Source: Spraguea lophii
Lineage: Eukaryota > Microsporidia > Spragueidae
Direction of reading: 5' to 3'
Length of the DNA: 33,157 bases
Assembly: GCA_001887945.1 (NCBI GenBank)
Contig: LDOQ01000362.1
Span: 1-33,157 of the forward strand
Shown: one piece after another, positions 1-27,556 of the stretch
Layout of the letters: every line of letters begins with the position of its first letter
Position numbering within the stretch: the stretch's first letter is position 1
Program-made: the position numbers and the translations under genes
The notes under the pieces: model-generated
Seen by the model: only the letters and a program-made list of their open reading frames with translations
Told to the model about the DNA's origin: nothing
Databases searched by the model: none

Positions 1-367
1 GCATTAATCTCATCTTACCTTATGCTCCAGAGTGTTAGGATTTTGCGTCTGGTGCGCGTCGCCGCCCCCACTTCCAGCTCTTAAGGAATTCCCAGCCTTT
101 TCCGTTGCATAGTATTGGCCGAGTCACAAATCAATACAGGGATTGCAACTACATCAGCTGAACACTACTTTAATCTAGTAGCGGGGCCGTCATACAAGGC
201 ACAGCTATGCTGCACTATCGAAACCTCACCCACTCAACAACCTTTTTCTTCTCTTCTGCATTTATTATTTTTTTTTTGTTTTGAAAACTTTTTCTGGATG
301 AGGGATTCGAACCCGCCAGGCTTGGGGTTTGGTTACCACCCCACGACCACTGGGCCAGGCGGGACTA
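1..367 (-). mobile_element. tRNA-derived SINE, copy A (3' part cut by window edge)
   Basis: This is a GC-rich block in AT-rich surroundings, about 98% identical by eye to the complete copy at 23209-23709. Read on the minus strand it starts near 367 with a tRNA-like head holding an A box (347-357) and a B box (303-313), followed by an A-rich linker and a unique body; the tail lies beyond base 1. The head is not a working tRNA: the bases before the A box do not pair with those after the T-arm. It encodes no protein; the 90-aa open frame across 115-387 is an accident of sequence. Near identity to copy B implies recent activity. Confidence 0.85.
303..357 (-). promoter_or_regulatory. Internal RNA polymerase III promoter of SINE copy A (A and B boxes)
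   Basis: On the minus strand TGGCCCAGTGG (347-357) fits the tRNA A-box consensus TRGYNNARNNG, and GGTTCGAATCC (303-313) is a perfect B box. The 33-bp gap and the A box about 10 bases from the element's 5' end are as in tRNA genes. Pol III transcription is inferred from the family pattern. Confidence 0.8.
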
Positions 368-6390: not shown

Positions 6391-6406
6391 TTTATATTTG
6401 CATGAA
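6391..6406. repeat. Left target-site duplication of SINE copy C
   Basis: tttatatttgcatgaa at 6391-6406 is repeated exactly at 6574-6589, on the other side of the SINE. A 16-bp direct repeat is typical of LINE-machinery (target-primed) insertion. Confidence 0.92.
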
Positions 6407-6573
6407 TTTTTTTTTTACGAATGAAACTTTTATTTATCAAAGCTTCCTGGCCGGTTGCGGCCTACCATGGTCTGTGACCTTCGGTTCCTCGAGCGACATT
6501 AAACTTGTACTAACTGGTTTCGCTACAGATATGCATTAATCTCATCTTACCTTATGCTCCAGAGTGTTAGGAT
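6407..6573 (-). mobile_element. 5'-truncated SINE copy C
   Basis: About 167 bp almost identical to the 3' third of the full-length SINE at 23209-23709. On the minus strand it starts within the body (AAATCCTAACACTCTGG), lacks the tRNA-like head, and ends in a run of A (the T run at 6407-6416). Sixteen-base exact direct repeats flank it. Loss of the 5' end with a kept A tail is the signature of incomplete target-primed reverse transcription, and it fixes the element's orientation and 3' end. It sits inside the older gypsy integrase relic. Confidence 0.92.
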
Positions 6574-6589
6574 TTTATATTTGCATGAA
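6574..6589. repeat. Right target-site duplication of SINE copy C
   Basis: Exact second copy of the 16-bp sequence at 6391-6406. Confidence 0.92.
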
Positions 6590-7178: not shown

Positions 7179-7640
7179 TAGTCTGGCTTGGCAGGGTAAT
7201 CACAGTGTTATAACCAAATTGTAAACCTAACTGATTTAAATCCCTCAGTTGAAGAATTTGCAAAAAAATAAAATGTTGATGAGAAGGAGAAAAAAATAGT
7301 TAAATTGTTAGGGCCTAATAGCGTAACTTATCTCTGACTTGTATGTCACACTATTATTATACCCAAAAACAGTGTTTAGAATATGTCGTCATAATCTCTA
7401 TATTGATTTGTGGTTTTACCAATATTATGTTAAGAATCTTTAAAGGCTGACGATATCGATCTGGATCATACGCAAAATTATAACGCCGAGAGCATAAGGT
7501 AAGATAAGTTAGTGTATTCTATAGCAAGATTAATTGGTACAAACTACTCATATTTTAAGGAACCAAAAGTTTCCGATAATAATGAACCCATCCAACTGGA
7601 GCTCTTTGAGAATAATTAAAATATTGTTAAAAAATATATA
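7179..7640 (+). mobile_element. Old, AT-decayed full-length SINE copy D
   Basis: Plus-strand copy of the same SINE, heavily diverged but colinear. Shared blocks in order: tagtctgg at the head (7179-), taaccaaa and aatccctca of the tRNA-like part (7210-7247), cttgtatg (about 7338), tattgatttgtg followed by ccaatattatg (about 7400-7430), cgcaaaat, then gagcataaggtaagat exact at 7490-7505, and ggtacaaa and aaggaacc further on. Many G or C positions of the young copies are A or T here. The last part (about 7570-7640) differs, so it may be a different 3' subfamily. No clear target duplication remains. Both promoter boxes are damaged. Confidence 0.8.
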
Positions 7641-14768: not shown

Positions 14769-15015
14769 TGTCCTGTTGGACAGGATCTTGTCCTATAAGA
14801 CTCCTGTGGAAGGTTGAATAACTAGAGGCAGGTCTAGCTTTACTAAAAAGACTAAAACGTTTATACTTTGGTAACATTGTTTTACTTTTATTTATTTTGA
14901 AACTTATATATTTTGTTTCTGGTACATTAGTTTCATATATATCAGATCAAATATATCAATGTGTATTACACATCATTTAAATTTAATAGTCTAGAACTAC
15001 ATGTTAAACACAATA
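14769..15015 (-). repeat. 3' LTR of the gypsy element
   Basis: 247 bp, starting TGTCCTGTTGGACAGG and ending AAACACAATA on the plus strand. It differs from the other LTR at five places, including C to T in the terminal CA. Its copy of the LTR-internal ATG (near 14877) reads out into Merlin sequence. Confidence 0.95.
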
Positions 15016-15029
15016 TTCTGCTACTTCCT
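15016..15029 (-). promoter_or_regulatory. Candidate polypurine tract
   Basis: On the minus strand AGGAAGTAGCAGAA sits directly before the 3' LTR and overlaps the end of the pol stop codon TAG (15028-15030). Twelve of fourteen bases are purines. It is where plus-strand priming is expected; assignment is by position. Confidence 0.5.
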
Positions 15030-16093
15030 ACAAGAAAGCTGGTTTGATATTTTTAATACTAACCATGAATATTCCATTTGGTTTTTCTATAGCTACTATA
15101 TTGTTAGAAGAATATGTTTTGACAATCTTATATGGGCCTTTATACGGGCTCTCTCCAGTTTTCCTTGAATTTGGTTTTTTAAGTATATCATGTCATTAAT
15201 TTTATATGTTTTATTTAATCTTTTATTATTTTTTCTCTGAGTATTATTAACTTTAATTTTATTATTTTCTGCCTTGGTTTGAATTAGTTCTAAACTATTT
15301 GGATTATTTTTGAAAACAGAGATCAACTTTGATGGTGTATTTTTAATGGTTGTTCTGTAACAGTCATTCAAAATTCTTAGACGATAGAAAATGGCTTTAT
15401 TTAGTTCTTTTCCTTTATAAATTCTTAAAAGTTTTAATATTATTTTATTAGTGTTTTCAGACATTCCATTTGATTCTGGGTTGTATGCAGAAGTTGTCAC
15501 GTGTTCTATATTCCTTTCTTTGAGAAATATTGAAAAGTTTGAGCTAGTGAATTGACGGCCATTCTCAGTCGGTAGCTTTTTGGGCTCTCCAAATTGTTTG
15601 AAAAATAATACAAAACCTTTCCTTATAAGTTCTTCACTATCTATTTTCTCTAATAAATACAACTGTGTAAAACGAGTAAATATGTCTGTTATTGTAAGTA
15701 TATTAAATGCGGGTATAGATAATTCATTTATAAATTCAGAGCTTCTAAATGGACCTATAATGTCTGATGGTAACACTTCAAGAGGATAATCCGAGTTTAT
15801 GGAACCTACAATTTTACCATATTTATGCTTAGTTGTTGTGATAGGCTGACATTTTTTACATTTTTTAATAATATCTTTTGTTTTACTAAATGGTACTTCT
15901 ATTCCAATGTTTCTTACAGTTTCGAAAGTCCGTGCGTTCCTGGATGTCCTAGAGCTATATGTTCCTTCATTATCTGTGTATCTGAAAGATTTTTTTTACT
16001 TGTTATTGAAAAGCTTCTTGATAATCCATCTGCTACTTTGTTATGTTTACCTTCTATATGCTTCATTGTAATATTGTATTGTGTGAGATATTC
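15028..16093 (-). pseudogene. Integrase region of the gypsy element (broken)
   Basis: Starts with the segment following RNase H (KHIEGKHNKVADGLSR), then the H2C2 zinc-binding part (HPGTHGLSK and CKKCQ, about 15830-15950) with a frameshift near 15920. The core lies in the open frame 15096-15776: first Asp in SDIIGPF, second site PTENGRQF where DNG is usual (Asp replaced by Glu), and Glu in NPESNGMSEN. Near 15150 another frame change leads to SPYKGPYKIV, a GPY/F module, and the tail ends at the TAG at 15028-15030. Inactive by two frameshifts and probably by the D-to-E change. Confidence 0.88.
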
Positions 16094-16531
16094 TTACCAT
16101 CTGTGTACTCTACTAAATGGTTCTTGAAGTTTAAATGTTATATTTCTATTATCTGTTTTAGCGATTATGTTCATATTAAACAATATAGTTCTGAATCGAA
16201 TTACAGTCATATATAATGCAAAGTACTCCTTTTCTACTATTGTGTATCTTAGTTCGGATTTTTGTAATTTATGGCTATATAATGCTATAACACCATGTTC
16301 TTGATATAATACACTGGAAATGCCAATATCTGATGCATCTGTTTCAATGTAAATATCCTTTTCAAAGTCGGGATAGCATAAAGTAGGGACCTTTTTAACA
16401 TTAGTCCATAGGTTATCTAATTCTTCTCTTTCTTGAATTTTCCATTGATAGGGTGTTTTTTGTTGTAATTTATCAGTCAAAAAGGTTGTTCTACGAGTCA
16501 TTGACTTGATAAAAGGCCTGAACCAATTCAA
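16094..16531 (-). pseudogene. RNase H region of the gypsy element
   Basis: The 145-codon frame begins with the end of the RT connection (NWFRPFIKSMTRRTTFLTDK) and holds the RNase H catalytic pattern: Asp in IYIETDASDIGI, Glu in YTIVEKEYFAL, and Asp in IAKTDNRNI. It ends at TAA (16094-16096) where the frame continues with clear homology (EYLTQYNITMKH); a CAA glutamine codon probably mutated to TAA (C to T). Upstream it is one frame off the RT part. Confidence 0.9.
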
Positions 16532-16536
16532 TAATC

Positions 16537-16956
16537 CTATAAGTCTGGTAGCTCCTTCTTGGTTTTTGGAAGATCTATTTTGGTTAGATAATCCAGGTTT
16601 GTTAAATTTGGTTTATAACCTTCTTCTGAAATTATATGACCAAGGTAATTAATCTCTTTCTTAAAAAATATACATTTTTCTATATTTATAGTAAATCCTT
16701 GACTATTTAATCTTCTTCCTACAGTTGATACGTGATCTATGTGCTCTTCTATTGTTTTGCTGTGAATTAATACGTCGTCTAAGTAAATTTTAACATATGG
16801 TAGGTTTTCTAATACATTTTGCATAGCTCTCTGAAATGATCTTGGTGTATTAGTGAGTCCAAAAGGTAATCTCAAGTATTCGTAATGGTTGTTTAGGATT
16901 GAGAAAGCTGTATATTTGATTGAATCTTTTTTCATCTGAATCAGATGGTATCCCAT
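16537..16956 (-). pseudogene. Reverse transcriptase palm of the gypsy element
   Basis: A 139-codon frame with GYHLIQMKKDSIKYTAF, PFGLTNTPRSFQRAM and the catalytic YLDDVLIHS box, then INYLGHIISEEGYKPN, all canonical Ty3/gypsy RT blocks. The preceding IDLN (with the first catalytic Asp) is also in this frame, upstream of the first Met, so the Met at 16956 is not a real start. Joined to its neighbours by frame changes near 16978 and 16545. Confidence 0.92.
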
Positions 16957-18238
16957 GTTAAGGTCAATTGAACTGAATATACTTGATCCCTAAGATCTGT
17001 TAAACAATCTGTGATGTTAGGACATGGAAAAACTTCCTTTTCTGTACAATCGTTCAGTTTGGAATAATCTACCACTAATAGTAACTTCCCATTCTTTTTA
17101 GGAATGAAAAACGCAGGAGAGTAATATAGAGAATTGGACTTTCTAATTATATTATTTTTTAAAAGATTCTGTACTAGGTCTTGACCGTTTTTTCTTAATT
17201 GGTAGGGTGTATTATAATTCTTTATTTTAATCGTTGGTTCTTTTGTTATTTTAATGGTGTGAGAGTAACCAGAATAACAACCTATCCTATCTGTAGGATT
17301 TGCCAATTTAAGTACTTCAATGACTGATGTTTGTTGTTTTGTAGTAAGTAGACGTGGAGACATTGATGGTTTTCTAGATGTTAATTCTATGCTTCTTCCG
17401 TCAATAGTTAAACAGTTAAGTGCGAATTGTATAGAAACCTCATTCTTTTCTAGAAACTTTAAACCCAGAATTGCATTACAGCTTAGTGAAGGTACTACAA
17501 GTAATGATTGGTTGAATATTGCATTTTTTATCTCATCGAACTGGATTTCTACTTTTACTTCTTTTGATATTTCTATTTTCTCTTTGTTAGCTACTTTTAT
17601 ATTTAGCACATCTATTTCTTTTGTTTCAAGATTGAGTTTGTCTATTATTTCTTCTGATATATATGAATGCTGTGCAGCTGTATCTATCAGAAATTCTAGT
17701 GGTAAACTTTTTATTTCTCCATTTATAACTATCAAATTTCCTCTTTGATTATCGTTAAGCGTATTTATTTTCTTTTCTTTATTTTCTAGTTTTAACTGAC
17801 GACACTCTTTCTGATCATGTTTTGAGCTTTGATGAAAATTGCACCATTTTTTATCGTTTATAAATTCTACATTTTGTTTTTCAGAGATTGATTTATTTTT
17901 CGTTAATCTTTGGGGTGTAGATAAGATCTCTGTTTCAACCTTCTCTATATATTGTTTTATCTCATCTATCTCATATTTTTCCATTTTGATCATCTCTATC
18001 CTTGTCTTTTGTGTTAAACCCTCCTTAAATTTCGTTTTAAAATACAGTTTCTGTTCTGCTATTGTCCATTTGTTGCATAAAGCTAATTCTTTGACCTTTG
18101 TATCTATATAATCATAATATTCTGTAATTGTTTTGTATTCATGTTGACTAGTTTTTTCTAATAATGCTTCAATCATTGTGGCTTGAGTGGCGTTGTATCT
18201 TTTCTTCTGTATACATTCTATAGCCTTTTTTGGATCAG
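16941..18238 (-). pseudogene. Gag (C-terminal part), protease and N-terminal RT of the gypsy element
   Basis: Open frame (the longest Met-started part is 16941-18176, 411 codons). In order: capsid-like helical region, zinc knuckle WCNFHQSSKHDQKEC (C-x2-H-x4-H-x4-C, about residues 112-125), aspartic protease PLEFLIDTAAQHS (Asp about residue 165, DTA rather than DTG), and RT beginning with YSPAFFIPKKNGK and VVDYSKLND. The frame is open upstream of the Met and connects in the -1 frame with the short gag frame at 18239-18601 at AAAAAAC (18248-18254). It ends by frameshift in front of the IDLN motif. Confidence 0.9.
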
Positions 18239-18601
18239 CTATATTATGTTTTTTCTTATGTTATTTCTTGTTAGTTCTTTGATTACGCTCATGGATGTTT
18301 TTTCATCCAAACCGTTATTCCTTATTAGATCCTTTAAGGTTGTTATCCAACTGTTTAAGTCTTGATTATCTATGTCTTCTAGTATTTGTATGTTTTTTCT
18401 TATCTTAATGCTAGTGTTCTCAATAGGCATTTCTATATCTATGGATTTGAAATGTTTTGCATGTTTTTGGTTCTTTGGCAATGATATCATTATGTCATGT
18501 GGGACAGGGTCTTGTCCTATAAGACTCCTGTGGAAGGTTGAATAACTAGAGGCAGGTCTAGCTTTACTAAAAAGACTAAAACGTTTATACTTTGGTAACA
18601 T
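18239..18601 (-). CDS. Gag N-terminal frame starting inside the 5' LTR (120 aa)
   Basis: Starts at an ATG in the 5' LTR (18599-18601), so about 36 residues are LTR-encoded, and runs without a break across the LTR boundary at 18493 into the internal region. The product begins MLPKYKRFSLFSKARPASS; the rest is charged and helical, ending NNIRKNII. TATATAAG lies only 26-33 bases upstream of the ATG, so the leader would be very short. It stops two codons after an A_AAA_AAC heptamer, and the -1 frame continues into the rest of gag. A capsid domain split in this way could be programmed frameshifting or a homopolymer indel. Confidence 0.75.
   Translation of the reverse strand: MLPKYKRFSLFSKARPASSYSTFHRSLIGQDPVPHDIMISLPKNQKHAKHFKSIDIEMPIENTSIKIRKNIQILEDIDNQDLNSWITTLKDLIRNNGLDEKTSMSVIKELTRNNIRKNII
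18248..18254 (-). promoter_or_regulatory. Candidate -1 frameshift heptamer A_AAA_AAC
   Basis: The minus strand reads A AAA AAC in the gag frame, a canonical slippery heptamer. Slipping back one base enters exactly the frame that continues into gag-protease-RT, and the zero-frame stop TAG follows two codons later. No stimulatory stem or pseudoknot is obvious. Confidence 0.45.
18480..18491. repeat. 12-bp perfect palindrome at the position of the primer-binding site
   Basis: AATGATATCATT lies one base inside the 5' LTR boundary, where a tRNA-complementary site beginning TGG is normally found and is absent here. It is within the gag coding frame, so it may be chance. Confidence 0.5.
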
Positions 18602-18739
18602 TGTTTTACTTTTATTTATTTTGAAACTTATATATTTTGTTTCTGGTACATTAGTTTCATATATATCAGATCAAATATATCAATGTGTATTACACATCAT
18701 TTAAATTTAATAGTCTAGAACTGCATGTTAAACACAACA
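18493..18739 (-). repeat. 5' LTR of the gypsy element
   Basis: 247 bp, starting TGTCATGTGGGACAGG and ending AAACACAACA on the plus strand. On the element's strand it contains TATATAAG (18627-18634) and the gag ATG (18599-18601). Confidence 0.95.
18627..18634 (-). promoter_or_regulatory. Candidate TATA box in the LTR
   Basis: TATATAAG on the minus strand, 26-33 bases upstream of the LTR-internal gag ATG. The same sequence is present in the 3' LTR. Placement implies a nearly leaderless transcript; inference only. Confidence 0.4.
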
Positions 18740-20430: not shown

Positions 20431-20601
20431 ACATTATTTTTTTGTGGTAGAAGTCTCTTTTATATAACTTTTTTTGAAAATTAAAGCGATATCTTACTAA
20501 ATTTTTATATTTAAATTGTTTTTATTCTTTGTAATTATAATCAAATATATACTTTATTGAGGACATAATAGTTTGGATAGATATCAGACTATTGAATAAA
20601 A
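20431..20601. other. Short AT-rich spacer
   Basis: Nothing recognised between the third Merlin relic and the TTAA element. Confidence 0.4.
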
Positions 20602-20605
20602 TTAA

Positions 20606-20633
20606 GACCCCAATAATAAAATCAAATATTAAA
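20606..20633 (+). repeat. Left 28-bp terminal inverted repeat of the TTAA element
   Basis: Exact reverse complement of 21763-21790; the preceding TTAA is the presumed target duplication. Confidence 0.93.
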
Positions 20634-20639
20634 CAAAAA

Positions 20640-21715
20640 TATTTTTAATCGTTGTTATTATCATTGTTAAAATTATTAGGAATATTATTAGACGTTCTTC
20701 TAAGTATTGTTCTATTTATGTTAGCTATTTCGTTAAAACATCTCAGTCTATATTCTCACGTAGCTAATATTTCCTTACACTTCAATAATATTTGGGAATT
20801 ATAGCATTTCTATCATAGATTTTACTATTATTATTAAAACCAATCGTAGTTAGAAATAACTTGGCTGGTGTTTCATTCACAGCTTTATATTTTTTTATAT
20901 TATATTGATACTTTACCTCATCAATAATATTTACCTATTGTATTGTATTTCTGTATAATATTACAGATATTAAACTTCTTTTGATTATAAAATTAAATCT
21001 TTAAACTTGACTCTGTGACTCTGGATGATGGGGGATATCTAATATATGTCTTATATTATATTTTTACATATATAATTTATTAATCTATTGTTAAATTCTC
21101 ACCATTATCAGTGTGTATTTCTCTGGGAATAATACATCTTATAAAATGATTTTCTAAATGGATATACATTTCTTCTGCAGTTTTATTGATACATGGGAAA
21201 CACCATACAAATTTTGTTGCACAATCAATCATACTTAAAATATATTTAAAGTTATTATTATCAGATTGACAATCTAACATATATGTTATATTTAATTGAA
21301 TTCTATCAAGTTTTTGTATAATAATGATGATAGGCTGTATGGATATTTATCAATATATGTATCGCGTACACCACAAATAGAATAATTATCCAATACAACT
21401 TTTATATCGATTATTTTTATATTATAAAATTTGTTTATTATTTCATTAAATGTTGAATTTATATCTTTATGGCAACTTTCATAGATTTTTTCAATAAAGT
21501 CCTTTTTAATCAAACAATATATTTCAGAGGATGTTTATTTGGTTTTATTAAAATTTTATAATTCAGTAATAACATTTTATCTGCTTTTATTTTAAACTTC
21601 TTTTTTTGGTTTTTGTTAAAATTAATTGGATATACTCTGTTCTTAAATATATAACCAAATCATTATATTCTTCTTCTGTTTTTATTTTTATTAAATTTGC
21701 CATAATGAATTTTTT
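20640..21715 (-). pseudogene. Integrase-like DDE transposase of the TTAA element (frameshifted)
   Basis: Starts at the ATG near 21714 (MANLIKIKTEEEYNDL) just inside the right repeat. Frame 21292-21513 has a zinc-binding-like part (ESCHKDIN ... NYSICG). A frame change near 21295 leads to YMLDCQSD (candidate first Asp) and ILSMIDCATKFVWCFP, then REIHTDNGENL with the second Asp (21080-21280). Another frame reads DIPHHPESQ and RFN (about 20990-21050), matching the P.HPqSqG.vErfN block with the catalytic Glu region damaged. At least four lesions. Overall order and spacing are those of retroviral-type integrases. Confidence 0.75.
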
Positions 21716-21762
21716 AAAAAGAGAAATTTGCATTTTATAAACACGTTTTATAAGGGTTTTTA

Positions 21763-21790
21763 TTTAATATTTGATTTTATTATTGGGGTC
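21763..21790 (-). repeat. Right 28-bp terminal inverted repeat of the TTAA element
   Basis: Exact partner of 20606-20633, followed by TTAA at 21791-21794. Confidence 0.93.
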
Positions 21791-21794
21791 TTAA

Positions 21795-22555
21795 TTCACG
21801 GTTAATATTTTTTATTTTTTACATTATAAATAATGGATTCTAATTTTACATCAGGAACTATTCAAAAAAATATGGATTTTTTAATTATTAATATATAGAG
21901 ATTAGTAAAAACCGAGAAACTATAATATATTATATAATAATTTAATATTACATTTTTGATTTTTATGAAATGTATATTTTTATTTTAGATAAAATATTTT
22001 CATTGTGATCATATTATGTTTTTAAAAAAAAATATTTTATATTCATCGTTTAAATTTTTTGGATTTATTATTTTTATCTATATATTTGTGTTGTATCAAT
22101 TGAATTATTGGGATTTAATTTTTTAAAACCAATAAAAAAGAGTAATGTAAATATATTTTTTTAAAAATTCAAATATTATATTCATATCATATAGAATATA
22201 AATAAGTTATTTATCTTTATTTATTCTATATTTTCTTATTCTAATTACTTTTATTAAAATCACAATGGTTATTATGATTTTAATAAAAATTATGTTCAAA
22301 TAATAATGTTAGTATAACTTAAATAGTAAAATAAATATTTTATCTGATTTCTATCTGTCTATATTTACCTCATCTTATAATATAAACATATAAATAGAGT
22401 TTAACTATATATAAGATTATATTTATATTTATAATCTTTATTATAATACATATATTATAATCAATTTTTTTAAAACAATAATAATTATAATATATTGTTA
22501 TTGTCTAATATTAATATTAACTACTTCAAAAACAGACCTTAAATACGAATATAAC
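21795..22555. other. Very AT-rich stretch without genes
   Basis: No open frame. Around 22252-22290 there is a short inverted repeat (tttattaaaatca ... tgattttaataaa, 13-bp stem), which could be a tiny hairpin or chance. Confidence 0.45.
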
Positions 22556-23194: not shown

Positions 23195-23208
23195 AATAAA
23201 TTATTTGA
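23195..23208. repeat. Left target-site duplication of SINE copy B
   Basis: aataaattatttga, repeated exactly at 23710-23723. Confidence 0.93.
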
Positions 23209-23709
23209 TTTTTTTTACGAATGAAACTTTTATTTATCAAAGTTTCCTGGCCGGTTGCGGCCTACCATGGTCTGTGACCTTCGGTTCCTCGAGCGAAATT
23301 AAACTTGTACTAACTGGTTTCGCTACAGATATGCATTAATCTCATCTTACCTTATGCTCCAGAGTGTTAGGATTTTGCGTCTGGTGCACGTCGCCGCCCC
23401 CACTTCCAGCTCTTAAGGAATTCCCAGCCTCTTTCGTTGCATAGTATTGGCCGAGTCACAAATCAATACAGGGATTGCAACTACATCAGCTGAACACTAC
23501 TTTAATCTAGTAGCGGGGCCGTCATACAAGGCACAGCTATGCTGCACTATCGAAACCTCACCCACTCAACAATCTTTTTCTTCTCTTCTGCGTTTATTAT
23601 TTTTTTTTTGTTTTTTTTTGTTTTGAAAATTTTTTTCTGGATGAGGGATTCGAACCCGCCAGGCTTGGGGTTTGGTTACCACCCCACGACCACTGGGCCA
23701 GGCGGGACT
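23209..23709 (-). mobile_element. Full-length tRNA-derived SINE, copy B (about 501 bp)
   Basis: The reference copy of the family. On the minus strand: tRNA-related head (23640-23709) with A and B boxes, an A-rich linker (the T runs at 23600-23640), a GC-rich body of about 380 bp, and an A-rich 3' end (T run at 23209-23216), bounded by exact 14-bp target duplications. No coding capacity, so it needs a LINE for movement. GC content is roughly half, against perhaps a fifth in its flanks. It lies in a dead Merlin transposase gene. The 69-codon frame 23539-23748 across the head is not a gene. Confidence 0.93.
23646..23700 (-). promoter_or_regulatory. Internal pol III promoter of SINE copy B (A box 23690-23700, B box 23646-23656)
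   Basis: TGGCCCAGTGG and GGTTCGAATCC on the minus strand, 33 bases apart. Both boxes are intact, so this copy could be transcribed. The surrounding bases do not fold into a tRNA acceptor stem. Confidence 0.85.
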
Positions 23710-23723
23710 AATAAATTATTTGA
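23710..23723. repeat. Right target-site duplication of SINE copy B
   Basis: Exact second copy of aataaattatttga at 23195-23208. Confidence 0.93.
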
Positions 23724-23949: not shown

Positions 23950-26290
23950 CATATTCTTTATTAGCAAATATTCTTCTTTTTGTTTTCAATAATACTGCTG
24001 AAGTAGAAAGTCCGAGTAACTGGCATGTCGCGATGGTATACCTATCAATGACTGGCACTCGGCTAACATTGAACTCAAAAGTATTTCTGTTTTCTTATAT
24101 AATTACCATCGATTTATTTTCCAATGTCCGGTGTCATCTTCTACGCTTGGTATCATTTCTCAATTTTTTTAATACTATCGTTTAAATCATGTTTAGATTC
24201 AGTCAATATTACTACATCATCAGCAAATAGAAGACCAGGTATAAGTGGCAAACGATTATCAGCCGTTACATCTCTCATCTCGTTCAAGAAATCATTAATA
24301 TAAAGGTTAAACAAGATCGGTGAGATTGGGCAACATTACTTAATACCAATCCTATACCCAACGTCCTCTGATATAATGCCACCAAACTCAACTACAACTT
24401 TAGTATTTTTATATAATACATTTATATACTGGAATACTCTACTATGGAAATTCATGACTGCAATTTCATAACAGATTACTATAAGAACTCGATTGTATGA
24501 CTTGAGAAGTTTGCAATTAAGACGCATGTTTTATCGTTCCTTCTTATCCACGCGTGAGATTTCATATAAAGAAGTAGCTTGTGAAACACCCTCTTTAAGT
24601 CCTCTAAAGCGAACTTGATTCATGTTGATTATTATTTTCATAATCAGGTTACTCAGTGTTGATATCAATAAAATTCCCTTGTAATTATTACACTTTGAAA
24701 GATCATCTTTCTTAAAAACAAGAATAATCATTGCGCTGTTCGGTTTGTCTAATATTACATTAGTATTAAACATTTGTGTTAAAAAAGTTGAACCGACAAC
24801 AAAACATAGGGGTTATACAATGTGATTTTCCTATATCATTCTATAAAGGTTTATAGGAATCCCATCGACATGTGATGCTTTACCCTGTTGAATATGTTTC
24901 AAAGTAGTAAAACTTCATTTTGACGGAGATCGTCATCACAACCATCTAAGACCATCCCTGTGTATAACCTTCCCCTACAGTGTTTGCTATGATATCATTA
25001 TCTTAGGTGAATACTTATAAGTATTCACCTAAAAATCACAGATAACATGTTTTATTAAACGTTCATCATCCACAATGGTTTAGAGACAAAGTTGAACGTC
25101 GTATGTTGATTGCTATACGAATTCAACGATGGAGCTTTTTAGAACTATTTTTATGTAGGTTTTTATACCTTTCTCTATATAAGAAGCCTATCGTTCCTTT
25201 ACATTCCGGATTTCCCTATCAGCAGAACACTTAAGTGCTTTATATATTACAGGCAGGATTTATAATCCCGATATCAGTAGACTCTTTTTTCTATTGTTTG
25301 GGGTGTCTGGGATGAGTAAAATATTATTCACCTCTTATTCATCGTCTTTTTAAGATTATACTCAAGAGGGTATTTCCTATTAAAAACTGCAGATAGAGTT
25401 AAATTTCACAAATACACTCTTTTTGTCTCTATTATTCAATTGTATCATTGGAAATATTCCCAATCACCTCAGACATTTTACATAGATCATTACGAAACCT
25501 TAATTTGTTAATCTTACAATGATTAATAGTAACCTCCGCCAATACAGGCAAGTGTTAGATAAATTCTATTTCCTATTGGGACCTTGACTAAGAATAAAGT
25601 TTTTGTTTATTAAATCATATAATCAATATATTTTTCGTACCGTCTATTTTAGACAACCCGTCAGATGGATTTTCTGCAAGAGAGGAATTCTTCATTCACA
25701 TTGAGTCGTATTTGCAATGTTGTTTGTGTGGGCCAGAAGGTAGACTATTTCAACCCTCTTTGTTAATACAATTTTATTGTACATTGATATTCTTTTCTCT
25801 CTTCGGTAATATCATCAAATTGATATAATGCTTCGTTTTTTTCTGGCGGATTATAAAGGATGTAAAATGAAACAAGCGTTATATTCTATAGCTGTTTGTC
25901 AATTATTTTTCTGACATTCTTACAAGGACGTAATCTTTATGCTCTGGAGGTCTCTTATAAACAGATTATATTAGATCCTTCGCATCAAGGAATATTTAAA
26001 AATCATGTGGTTTGATTTTCATGTCAGAAATATTAATTGATACAGATTCAAGTGACTCATATTTACCGTTAATAAGTTTACCGTCGCGAAATGTTACATT
26101 ATCCCAGCTCAGTTGACAACCTCTTTTATGAGTATTCCACTCTTTTCAGAGTTTTTAAAATCTTCATCTGGCTGTTTTATTCAATTCGCCGACAGGTACC
26201 AGAAAGAAAACTTTGATAAAACGCTTAAATGTTTCGGTTGAGAAACAAAACAATTTTCACACTCCAGATCTGATTGCATTAATCGCATGT
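23950..26290 (-). pseudogene. Decayed LINE (non-LTR retrotransposon) with reverse transcriptase
   Basis: Minus-strand RT of the LINE type. Motifs in order: QQGKASHVDGIPINLYRM (about 24845-24905, the gKA.G.DgIp block), then AMIILVFKKDDLSKCNNYKG and ISTLSN (24640-24740, the W..a.ivpifKKGd...c.NYRGI.LLs block), and after a frame change CPISPILFNLYINDF followed by GLLFADDVVIL with the catalytic FADD box (about 24205-24335). Stops and shifts are common. The upstream part (25.0-26.3 kb) could hold an endonuclease but I see no secure motif. The ends are not defined. It is the only LINE seen here and so a possible relative of the SINE's mobiliser. Confidence 0.75.
25003..25032. repeat. 30-bp perfect palindrome
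   Basis: TTAGGTGAATACTTA followed at once by its exact reverse complement, with no spacer. It lies inside the LINE relic. A perfect 15-bp stem is unlikely by chance and seems younger than the decayed sequence around it. Confidence 0.95.
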
Positions 26291-26306: not shown

Positions 26307-26391
26307 AGGTTTTTTGATCAAATACGTACGGTGTCAAAATATGTAAAAATATTTTAAAGGAATGGGTCTTTTTTTTAATTAAATTCGTACG
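26307..26391 (+). repeat. Left terminal inverted repeat of the mariner-type element
   Basis: About 85 bp, imperfect reverse complement of 27474-27556, including gtaaaaatattttaaa and two copies of a [a/t]cgtacg motif. Confidence 0.9.
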
Positions 26392-26397
26392 ACCTTA

Positions 26398-27390
26398 ATG
26401 AATGAAAAAATATACAAAAAAATTGAAATTGAAACAAACAAAAAATTACTTTTTTTACATATTAAAGGTATGTCATTTAATAAAATAGGAGAGAAACTGG
26501 AGTAGCTAAATCTATTATTCAATCAATTATTCAAAAATTTAATATCAAAGTTGTTTTATCGATTGAAGGAAAAGGTGGATAAATAGTCTAAATTTGGTGA
26601 TGTCGAAAATACATTTATATCGGACCCTGTTGATGTCACCCCAATAATCACCTTTAAAAAACAACAGAAAAGATGAATGAAAGGTTTTTGATATCTATTC
26701 TATGCCTACAATTTTCAGAAACTTAAAAAACTTACATCTCTTATTAAATCATTAATTACTATTTCAGTGAATATAAACACCGAAACAACAATCGAAAAGC
26801 GTATATAATATGACGAGAAATTTACATGCTTATCATATAAATCATTCATATTTATAGACAAATCAGGATTTTCTCTTACAATTAATGTTAAATGTTGCAG
26901 AGCAATTATTGGCAAATCTCATTAAGTAGAAGTTGGAGGTATAAGAACAAAAACTTACAGTTTTGTAGCGATTGAAAATAAGAGTACTGTAATACATTAT
27001 AAAAATAATATTAATGTGTAAACGGTATTGATTTTAAAGAATTTTTAAGAGATTCACATACTATTACAATTGACAAAGGAATTAATAATCCAATATATGC
27101 TCTGATAATGTCAGAATATATTATTATAGTGGTGTTGTTGATTTAATCTCGGAACTTAATCTTTCGATTTTGTATCTTTCACCGTATTCTCTGTTTTAAA
27201 CATAATATAGAATAGTTTTAGTAAATGCAAGAATATTATTGGAATAATGGTGATAAACGCACGAGAAGAACTTTTTAAACATATTGATGAAAACTTTAAT
27301 TACACAACATCAGATGACCTAGCGTGATTTTTTAGGAAAATGTTGAGATATTTGTCAAGTTGTAGGAATAATGAAATTATACTTGAATAA
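26398..27390 (+). pseudogene. Tc1/mariner-type transposase (broken)
   Basis: Starts MNEKIYKKIEIETNKK at 26398, next to the left repeat. A helix-turn-helix reads IKGMSFNKIGEK, then after a frameshift GVAKSIIQSIIQKF. A D-containing block reads FIDKSGFSLTINVKCCRA (about 26855-26905; DK for the usual DE), followed by VGGIRTKTYSFVAIENKS. TITIDKGIN (about 27063-27090) replaces the usual ivmDNa.iH, and LYLSPYSLF (about 27170-27200) is the LPPYSP.LNPIE block with its end broken. Numerous stops. The minus-strand frame 26715-26915 is a shadow. Confidence 0.78.
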
Positions 27391-27473
27391 ATTATTTATT
27401 CTATTAAAGTGTTTTTTATGTATATACTATCTTATAAACTACATTTCTTTTAATTTAATTTTTAATTTTTAAA

Positions 27474-27556
27474 CCGTACGAATTTGATTGAAAAAAGTTC
27501 CATTCTTTTTAAAATATTTTTACTTATTTTGACTGTACGAATTTGATCAAAAACCT
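27474..27556 (-). repeat. Right terminal inverted repeat of the mariner-type element
   Basis: About 83 bp, partner of 26307-26391, followed by TA (27557-27558). Confidence 0.9.

Follow-up and report, generated by a model that had tools for sequence, protein, structure and literature searches.

The stretch described here, 33,157 bp long and hereafter called the window, is contig C48 of a 5,273,041-bp assembly of 73 contigs and holds, at positions 23195-23723, a complete short interspersed element (SINE) that probably belongs to a recently active family. Judging from its sequence and that of its relatives, we consider it likely, with a probability of roughly 0.85, that this is a tRNA-related SINE of a Dictyocoela-like microsporidian, copied by target-primed reverse transcription with the proteins of an endonuclease-type long interspersed element (LINE) of the same genome.

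Read on both strands, positions 23195-23723 consist of one full-length copy, which we call copy B, and the two 14-bp duplications that flank it. Copy B is 499 bp long and runs on the minus strand from 23709 to 23211, an element position p being 23710 minus the window coordinate. At its 5' end lies a tRNA-like head (23637-23709) with an A box (TGGCCCAGTGG, 23690-23700) and a B box (GGTTCGAATCC, 23646-23656), which fit a strict A-box/B-box pattern and are 33 nt apart. In the whole window, on both strands, this strict pattern occurs at three places, that is, in copy B (23700-), in an incomplete copy termed copy A (357-) and in a tRNA-Thr gene (5552-). The head is followed by an A-rich linker (23599-23636), which contains a TTTT run, and then by the SINE body (23330-23598), for whose source Rfam gave only four weak and partial matches below gathering scores, and which has no match to the LINE stretches compared. 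The element closes with a structured 3' domain and a short A tail of eight A (23209-23216). Two extra A follow the 499-bp element, and then comes the repeat TCAAATAATTTATT (23195-23208, minus strand), the 3' target-site duplication, an exact 14-bp match to its 5' partner at 23710-23723. The original prediction, which had pointed to A and B boxes 33 bases apart, a noncoding body, an A-rich 3' end and exact 14-bp target duplications at 23195..23723, is therefore correct in its anatomy and its coordinates; the longest stop-free frame in copy B spans 69 codons.

Copy B is one of many. Using 36-37-nt patterns from the 3' end, the middle and the head of the SINE, with at most three mismatches, we found 122, 110 and 103 matches, respectively, in the 5.27-Mb assembly, and none with the reversed patterns that served as controls. 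With 122 3'-end matches against 0 for the reversed pattern, the matches are not due to chance, and the family extends beyond the window, as expected for the abundant family that had been predicted. More than 100 copies of ~0.5 kb would amount to ~1% of the genome, a share estimated from the match counts. Searches of viral and of GTDB contigs, with one exact pattern each, gave 0 and 0 matches.

The insertions themselves carry the marks of retrotransposition. We defined copies by BLAST with copy B plus flank analysis, in a sample made up of 91 neighborhoods of the 122 3'-end matches, nine contig starts and the window; this sample is biased toward well-kept copies since the 3'-end matches came best first rather than all. 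Ninety-eight copies have their 3' end and both flanks, namely, 75 full-length, 17 5'-truncated (at least 90% identity) and six older ones (70-83%), and nine others are interrupted where a contig or locus ends. Of the 92 well-kept copies, 67 (59/75 full and 8/17 truncated, two of the 67 being in the window) lie between exact target repeats of 9 bp or more, compared with 46 of 4539 flank pairs taken from different copies (1.0%); none of the six old copies does. When one mismatch is tolerated, 71 of 98 copies reach a duplication score of at least 10, compared with 1.4% of 1942 controls. The duplications vary in length from 9 to 16 bp, with a median of 13, and the truncated copies share their 3' end with the full ones. 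At the 67 sites, insertion shows AT-richness and no further target motif; a candidate endonuclease motif, a missing A at position -1, was discarded as a probable artefact of the duplication extending into the A tail. The 75 full copies, 485-501 bp long, show a median divergence of 1.2% (range 0.2-5.8%) from the majority sequence and have in common 15 polymorphic positions in many combinations, so that several source copies were probably active. Copy number, variable-length duplications, A tails, 5' truncation and an internal promoter of RNA polymerase III (pol III) type together bear out the identification of the element as a SINE.

The 3' domain links the SINE to a LINE. Element positions 417-465 (49 nt; 23245-23293 in copy B, minus strand) form a block that is 86% identical (E 1e-10) to L020:1344-1392, in the 3' untranslated region (UTR) of a LINE on contig C21. 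The aligned positions of this block match at 40 of 43 in the LINE copy on contig C8 and at 38 of 43 in the L020 copy. A 35-nt pattern of the LINE block was found at eight places with 0-2 mismatches, all of them LINE matches, and at 91 further places with three mismatches, all in SINE-type sequence, the reversed controls giving 0.

Folding places three hairpins in the 3' domain: hairpin 1 (23264-23285), hairpin 2 (GGCCG CAAC CGGCC, 23249-23262) and a terminal hairpin 3 (GAAACTTT / AAAGTTTC, 23223-23246), all on the minus strand in copy B. The C8 copy of the LINE also folds into hairpins 1 and 2, the two that lie within the shared block or adjoin it. We tested the structure on 18 sequences picked by hand from ~35 distinct tails (28 plus seven older ones), nine of them well kept, with variants favored, and nine older or divergent. 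Across the domain, 89.8% of cells pair (94.4% in hairpin 3), a percentage that is biased because the structure was derived from the SINE itself. The stronger point is that both sides have changed at 10 of the 21 pairs (11 cells), hairpin 3 having five such pairs out of eight; shuffles give 3.1 ± 1.5 and none of 500 reaches 10, while slid versions of the structure reach at most 4, although related rows may inflate the count. At their very ends, the SINE reads ...ATAAATAAAAGTTTC and the LINE in ...ATAAATAAAATTTTC (copies on C6 and C2), in both cases directly before the A tail, and AATAAA, the common polyadenylation signal, is present in both. The ATAAATAAAA-TTTC similarity of the SINE end to four LINE ends has shuffle p values of 0.008, 0.008, 0.035 and 0.089. 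Among the window's 221 sites that precede A runs, the highest scores, 58 and 62, belong to the two SINE copies, with 25 for the next best; the four LINE ends score 22-28.

This LINE is, on such sequence grounds, the probable partner of the SINE. Our reverse transcriptase (RT) search of the assembly led to nine places, including gypsy-type long terminal repeat (LTR) elements, telomerase and a LINE fragment at the start of contig C72. The latter has an open frame (C72:3-1439, 479 codons) with an endonuclease followed by the start of an RT, and its closest relative in protein databases is 31% identical (E 6e-53). L020, in turn, holds a LINE 3' end, comprising a C-terminal coding region with a CPFC...H...C motif (read by eye), a stop codon, a 3' UTR and an A tail. 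The two are linked by a 68-bp piece directly after the L020 LINE 3' end, which is 98.5% identical to the C72 LINE, and by a C1 relic in which a C72-like stretch (L021, 75% over 256 bp) is followed at some distance by part of the 3' region (C1:71679-71763, 84%). When the genome was searched with the L020 3' region, 40 of 108 candidates were scored and gave 41 scored matches, 16 of which are LINE sequences that start at varying points, with 13 of the 16 ending within 6 nt of each other; the other 25 are SINE copies and match the block only. Three truncated LINE copies end in A tails and are flanked by duplications, judged by eye, of 11 bp on C8, 13 bp (one mismatch) on C6 and 15 bp on C2; in a fourth one (C67) the duplication is not clear.

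Contig C21 also has peculiarities of its own. Several LINE pieces are clustered at its start; upstream of the first LINE-like C terminus lies another, different one at L020:2-331 (frame read by eye); and at L020:1527-1620 the 68-bp internal LINE piece is joined straight to another LINE-like frame that starts MGNFNFF, which could reflect a template switch.

A number of observations weigh against a tRNA-related SINE served by this LINE. For 25 of the 92 well-kept copies there are no exact duplications reaching 9 bp. In the structure test, further pair types are not clearly above shuffles, 56 of 500 of which reach the count. The LINE has ~95 nt between the shared block and its 3' end that the SINE lacks, and the resemblance of the last ~30 nt of the SINE to the LINE end is no more than suggestive, with two of the four LINE ends scoring no higher than the best of the 219 other pre-A-run sites. 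As for the LINE, the Pfam domain scores of the C72 copy are under the curated cut-offs, this copy breaks off with its contig and aligns to its best relative in two frames, and in the assembly we saw no intact full-length LINE and no single intact copy that joins the C72 part to the L020 3' end. A run of at least four T lies inside 67 of the 75 full copies and might stop pol III early. Finally, a parent tRNA was not found. Neither ARAGORN nor Rfam recognizes the SINE head as a tRNA, and 62 of 200 shuffles fold as well as it does. We compared it with 31 host tRNAs called by ARAGORN (in 30 loci of 57 tRNA matches, plus the window), which amount to 22 distinct sequences. The eight best of these match at ~60% (46-49 identities over 75-82 columns); the top two, with a score of 13.5, surpass their 200 shuffles and some of those ranked next do not, and none of the 22 is convincing as a parent. 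Consequently, of the earlier label "tRNA-derived," the promoter boxes and their position stand, while descent of the head from a tRNA is putative.

Among the other explanations, the one that fares best accepts a real SINE but has it moved by another LINE, the shared block being an old piece of 3' UTR with no present role. This would fit the poor match of the last ~34 nt of the SINE to the LINE and the presence of the other LINE-like C terminus at L020:2-331. We nevertheless find it unlikely, since the block and the hairpins keep pairing, with two-sided changes, across old and young copies, and since A tails and duplication lengths agree between the SINE and three LINE copies. If the family were processed pseudogenes of a single cellular pol III RNA, an A tail and a promoter of pol III type would likewise be predicted, and the source of the SINE body was not found; a single such RNA does not account, however, for the LINE-derived 3' block, for the 15 polymorphic positions shared among 75 copies, which point to several source copies, or for Rfam matches that are weak and partial only, and we regard this origin, rather than a self-spreading SINE, as very improbable. 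Several contigs end within the SINE and flanks are exchanged in some copy pairs, as might be expected of an assembly artefact or of host DNA in the sample, but 67 of 92 insertions each have a duplication of their own, the flanks are AT-rich, the window contig carries the microsporidian RPL10 gene and the recurrent breakpoints agree with an assembly graph of 127-mers, which leaves very little room for either. That a short, dispersed, noncoding element could be a nonautonomous DNA transposon (MITE) or a Helitron has next to nothing in its favor given the variable 9-16-bp duplications, the A tail, the 5' truncation with a constant 3' end, the internal A and B boxes, the LINE-shared 3' block and ends that are not inverted copies of each other (by eye; our repeat scan covered arms of at least 40 nt).

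For a tRNA-related SINE copied by the LINE of its own genome, the following scheme can be proposed. RNA polymerase III would initiate at the 5' A/B-box promoter, transcription from which we infer from the boxes themselves. The LINE RT would then take the transcript by its 3' domain, three hairpins with LINE 3' UTR sequence at their core, and by its A tail; the shared sequence and structure are observed, and the RT would bind there. The LINE endonuclease would nick AT-rich DNA, where the A tail would prime synthesis and leave 9-16-bp duplications and an occasional 5' truncation, footprints that are seen with the SINE as well as with three of the LINE copies and from which the enzymology is presumed. 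The scheme is the accepted one for SINE/LINE pairs, as set out in the part of a review that deals with them (PMC3747384).

The host can be placed through one gene of the window, which bears out the expectation of a microsporidian-type genome. RPL10 (ribosomal protein L10; 1374-2030, minus strand) is 71% identical to its counterpart in Dictyocoela muelleri, Dictyocoela being classified in the phylum Microsporidia. The best named matches are from Dictyocoela, Hamiltosporidium and Vavraia, and the other named top matches are mostly microsporidian. A search of the assembly for small-subunit rRNA (Rfam RF02542) gave 0 matches (45 candidates, 5 scored), while the same search was positive in 9 of 14 control genomes, and the placement in Microsporidia is therefore made on RPL10 alone. 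Both elements differ from this genome in base composition: the SINE has 44.7% GC and the LINE 43.3%, compared with 24.4% for the window, 28-30% for three gypsy-type ORFs of the genome and 34% for RPL10. It is possible, though we would sooner doubt it, that SINE and LINE arrived together from a GC-richer genome, perhaps that of a crustacean host, and stayed active. The stay of the SINE in this genome has been long, since copies with 70-83% identity exist.

Animals, plants and other fungi offer familiar examples of SINEs that hitchhike on LINEs. The review cited above, in the part considered here, lists 58 SINEs with a partner LINE, and the known pairs resemble the present one in having a pol III-type head and a LINE-derived 3' sequence, with a structured 3' end in some (PMC3747384). 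They differ in that here a gap in the SINE separates the clearly LINE-like block from the 3' end; according to the same part, poly(A) does not rule out stringent recognition, an example being silkworm SART1 (PMC3747384). The AfuSINE2 families of Aspergillus fumigatus are, as portrayed in the relevant passages, likewise tRNA-related fungal SINEs, with lengths of 140-493 bp and duplications of 4-14 bp, but their copy number is low, whereas our SINE has >100 head matches in 5.27 Mb (PMC5063351). In microsporidia, nonlong terminal repeat elements are known from the portions of several papers that were covered (PMC4202319, PMC3486916, PMC13174016, PMC3614468), and Nosema bombycis has Dong-R4 LINEs (PMC3614468, in part). 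The C72 LINE departs from these known LINEs in having an APE-type endonuclease before the RT, as indicated by weak Pfam matches. The repeat table of the 2013 N. bombycis paper lists 28,669 bp of an unnamed "SINE," 0.18% of the genome (PMC3614468, Table 2); this fraction shares label and phylum with our element, and the table passage gives no sequence, structure, duplications or partner for it. In the main texts of PMC4202319, PMC7313128, PMC13174016 and PMC3486916 the word SINE does not occur (0 occurrences; the plural was checked in the last three), and among the titles and abstract starts listed by our full-text searches of open-licence PubMed Central, none presents a SINE family from a microsporidian. 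The original prediction that tRNA-derived SINEs are not a standard part of the described microsporidian mobile elements holds for family descriptions in the literature covered; SINEs are nonetheless mentioned for the phylum, in the N. bombycis table (PMC3614468). A SINE with a LINE-shared tail is known in kind, and what is probably new for microsporidia, within the literature covered, is a detailed case with a probable partner LINE.

The window contains other members of these families. Copy A (1-366, minus strand; element positions 377-1; 95.5% identity) is cut by the contig start. A 5'-truncated SINE copy lies at 6411-6576 on the minus strand (element 334-499; 98.8% identity), with an exact 13-bp duplication at 6394-6406 and 6577-6589, and an old relic at 7371-7542 on the plus strand survives as two pieces, 7371-7429 and 7467-7542 (72.9 and 75.9% identity). 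Where "at least three, probably five" copies had been predicted in 33 kb, there are three clear ones, four when the old relic is included, and a fifth was not found in the window. A decayed copy of the LINE family with many stops (24138-25818, minus strand; 71.6% DNA identity over 654 bp to the C72 LINE) sits 0.4 kb from copy B.

Some features of the SINE copies may be due to the assembly, which looks short-read. Eleven contig ends fall at SINE position 376/377 (the starts of C3, C15, C19, C25, C35, C48, C54, C56, C58 and C60 and the end of C9), and two others lie inside the SINE, in C22 near position 97 and in C50 near position 28. A biological origin of the shared ends was dropped since the numbers fit a 127-mer short-read assembly graph, a fit that we infer from polymorphic site 250 + 127 = 377 and from 376 + 127 = 503, in the A tail. 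Because contigs break in the SINE, its counts are probably lower bounds. In the inverted pairs L064/L065 (C1:142.5-144.6 kb) and L116 (C45:91.8-94.3 kb; by eye), flanks look exchanged, through inversion by recombination or through misassembly; given the apparent short-read assembly, we do not claim ectopic recombination between these inverted copies. Copies L054 (C1) and L119 (C52) have an identical 5' flank and different 3' flanks, the result of a rearrangement or a misjoin.

Other repeats of the window include an LTR retrotransposon (14769-18737), in which 245-bp direct repeats, 98% alike, surround broken gypsy-type frames (one TAG and two TAA in the RT stretch), and two ~1.2-kb stretches (20600-21796 and 26333-27533) bounded by inverted repeats that measure 49 nt (90%) and 59 nt (81%), which look like DNA transposons with terminal inverted repeats. 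Elsewhere in the assembly, L013 (C2:65028-68276) is a telomerase reverse transcriptase with long asparagine-rich stretches and 17% GC.

Microsporidia are models of genome reduction, and a young, well-kept SINE family with more than 100 copies and a probable partner LINE shows that nonautonomous retrotransposition ran recently in such a genome. The SINE can serve as a probe for SINEs in other microsporidia, and its insertions as markers for the lineage. The GC contrast of SINE and LINE with the window and the gypsy-type ORFs offers a test case for horizontal transfer; if the two did arrive together from an animal, a reduced parasite genome would carry a two-tier retrotransposon parasitism of animal origin.
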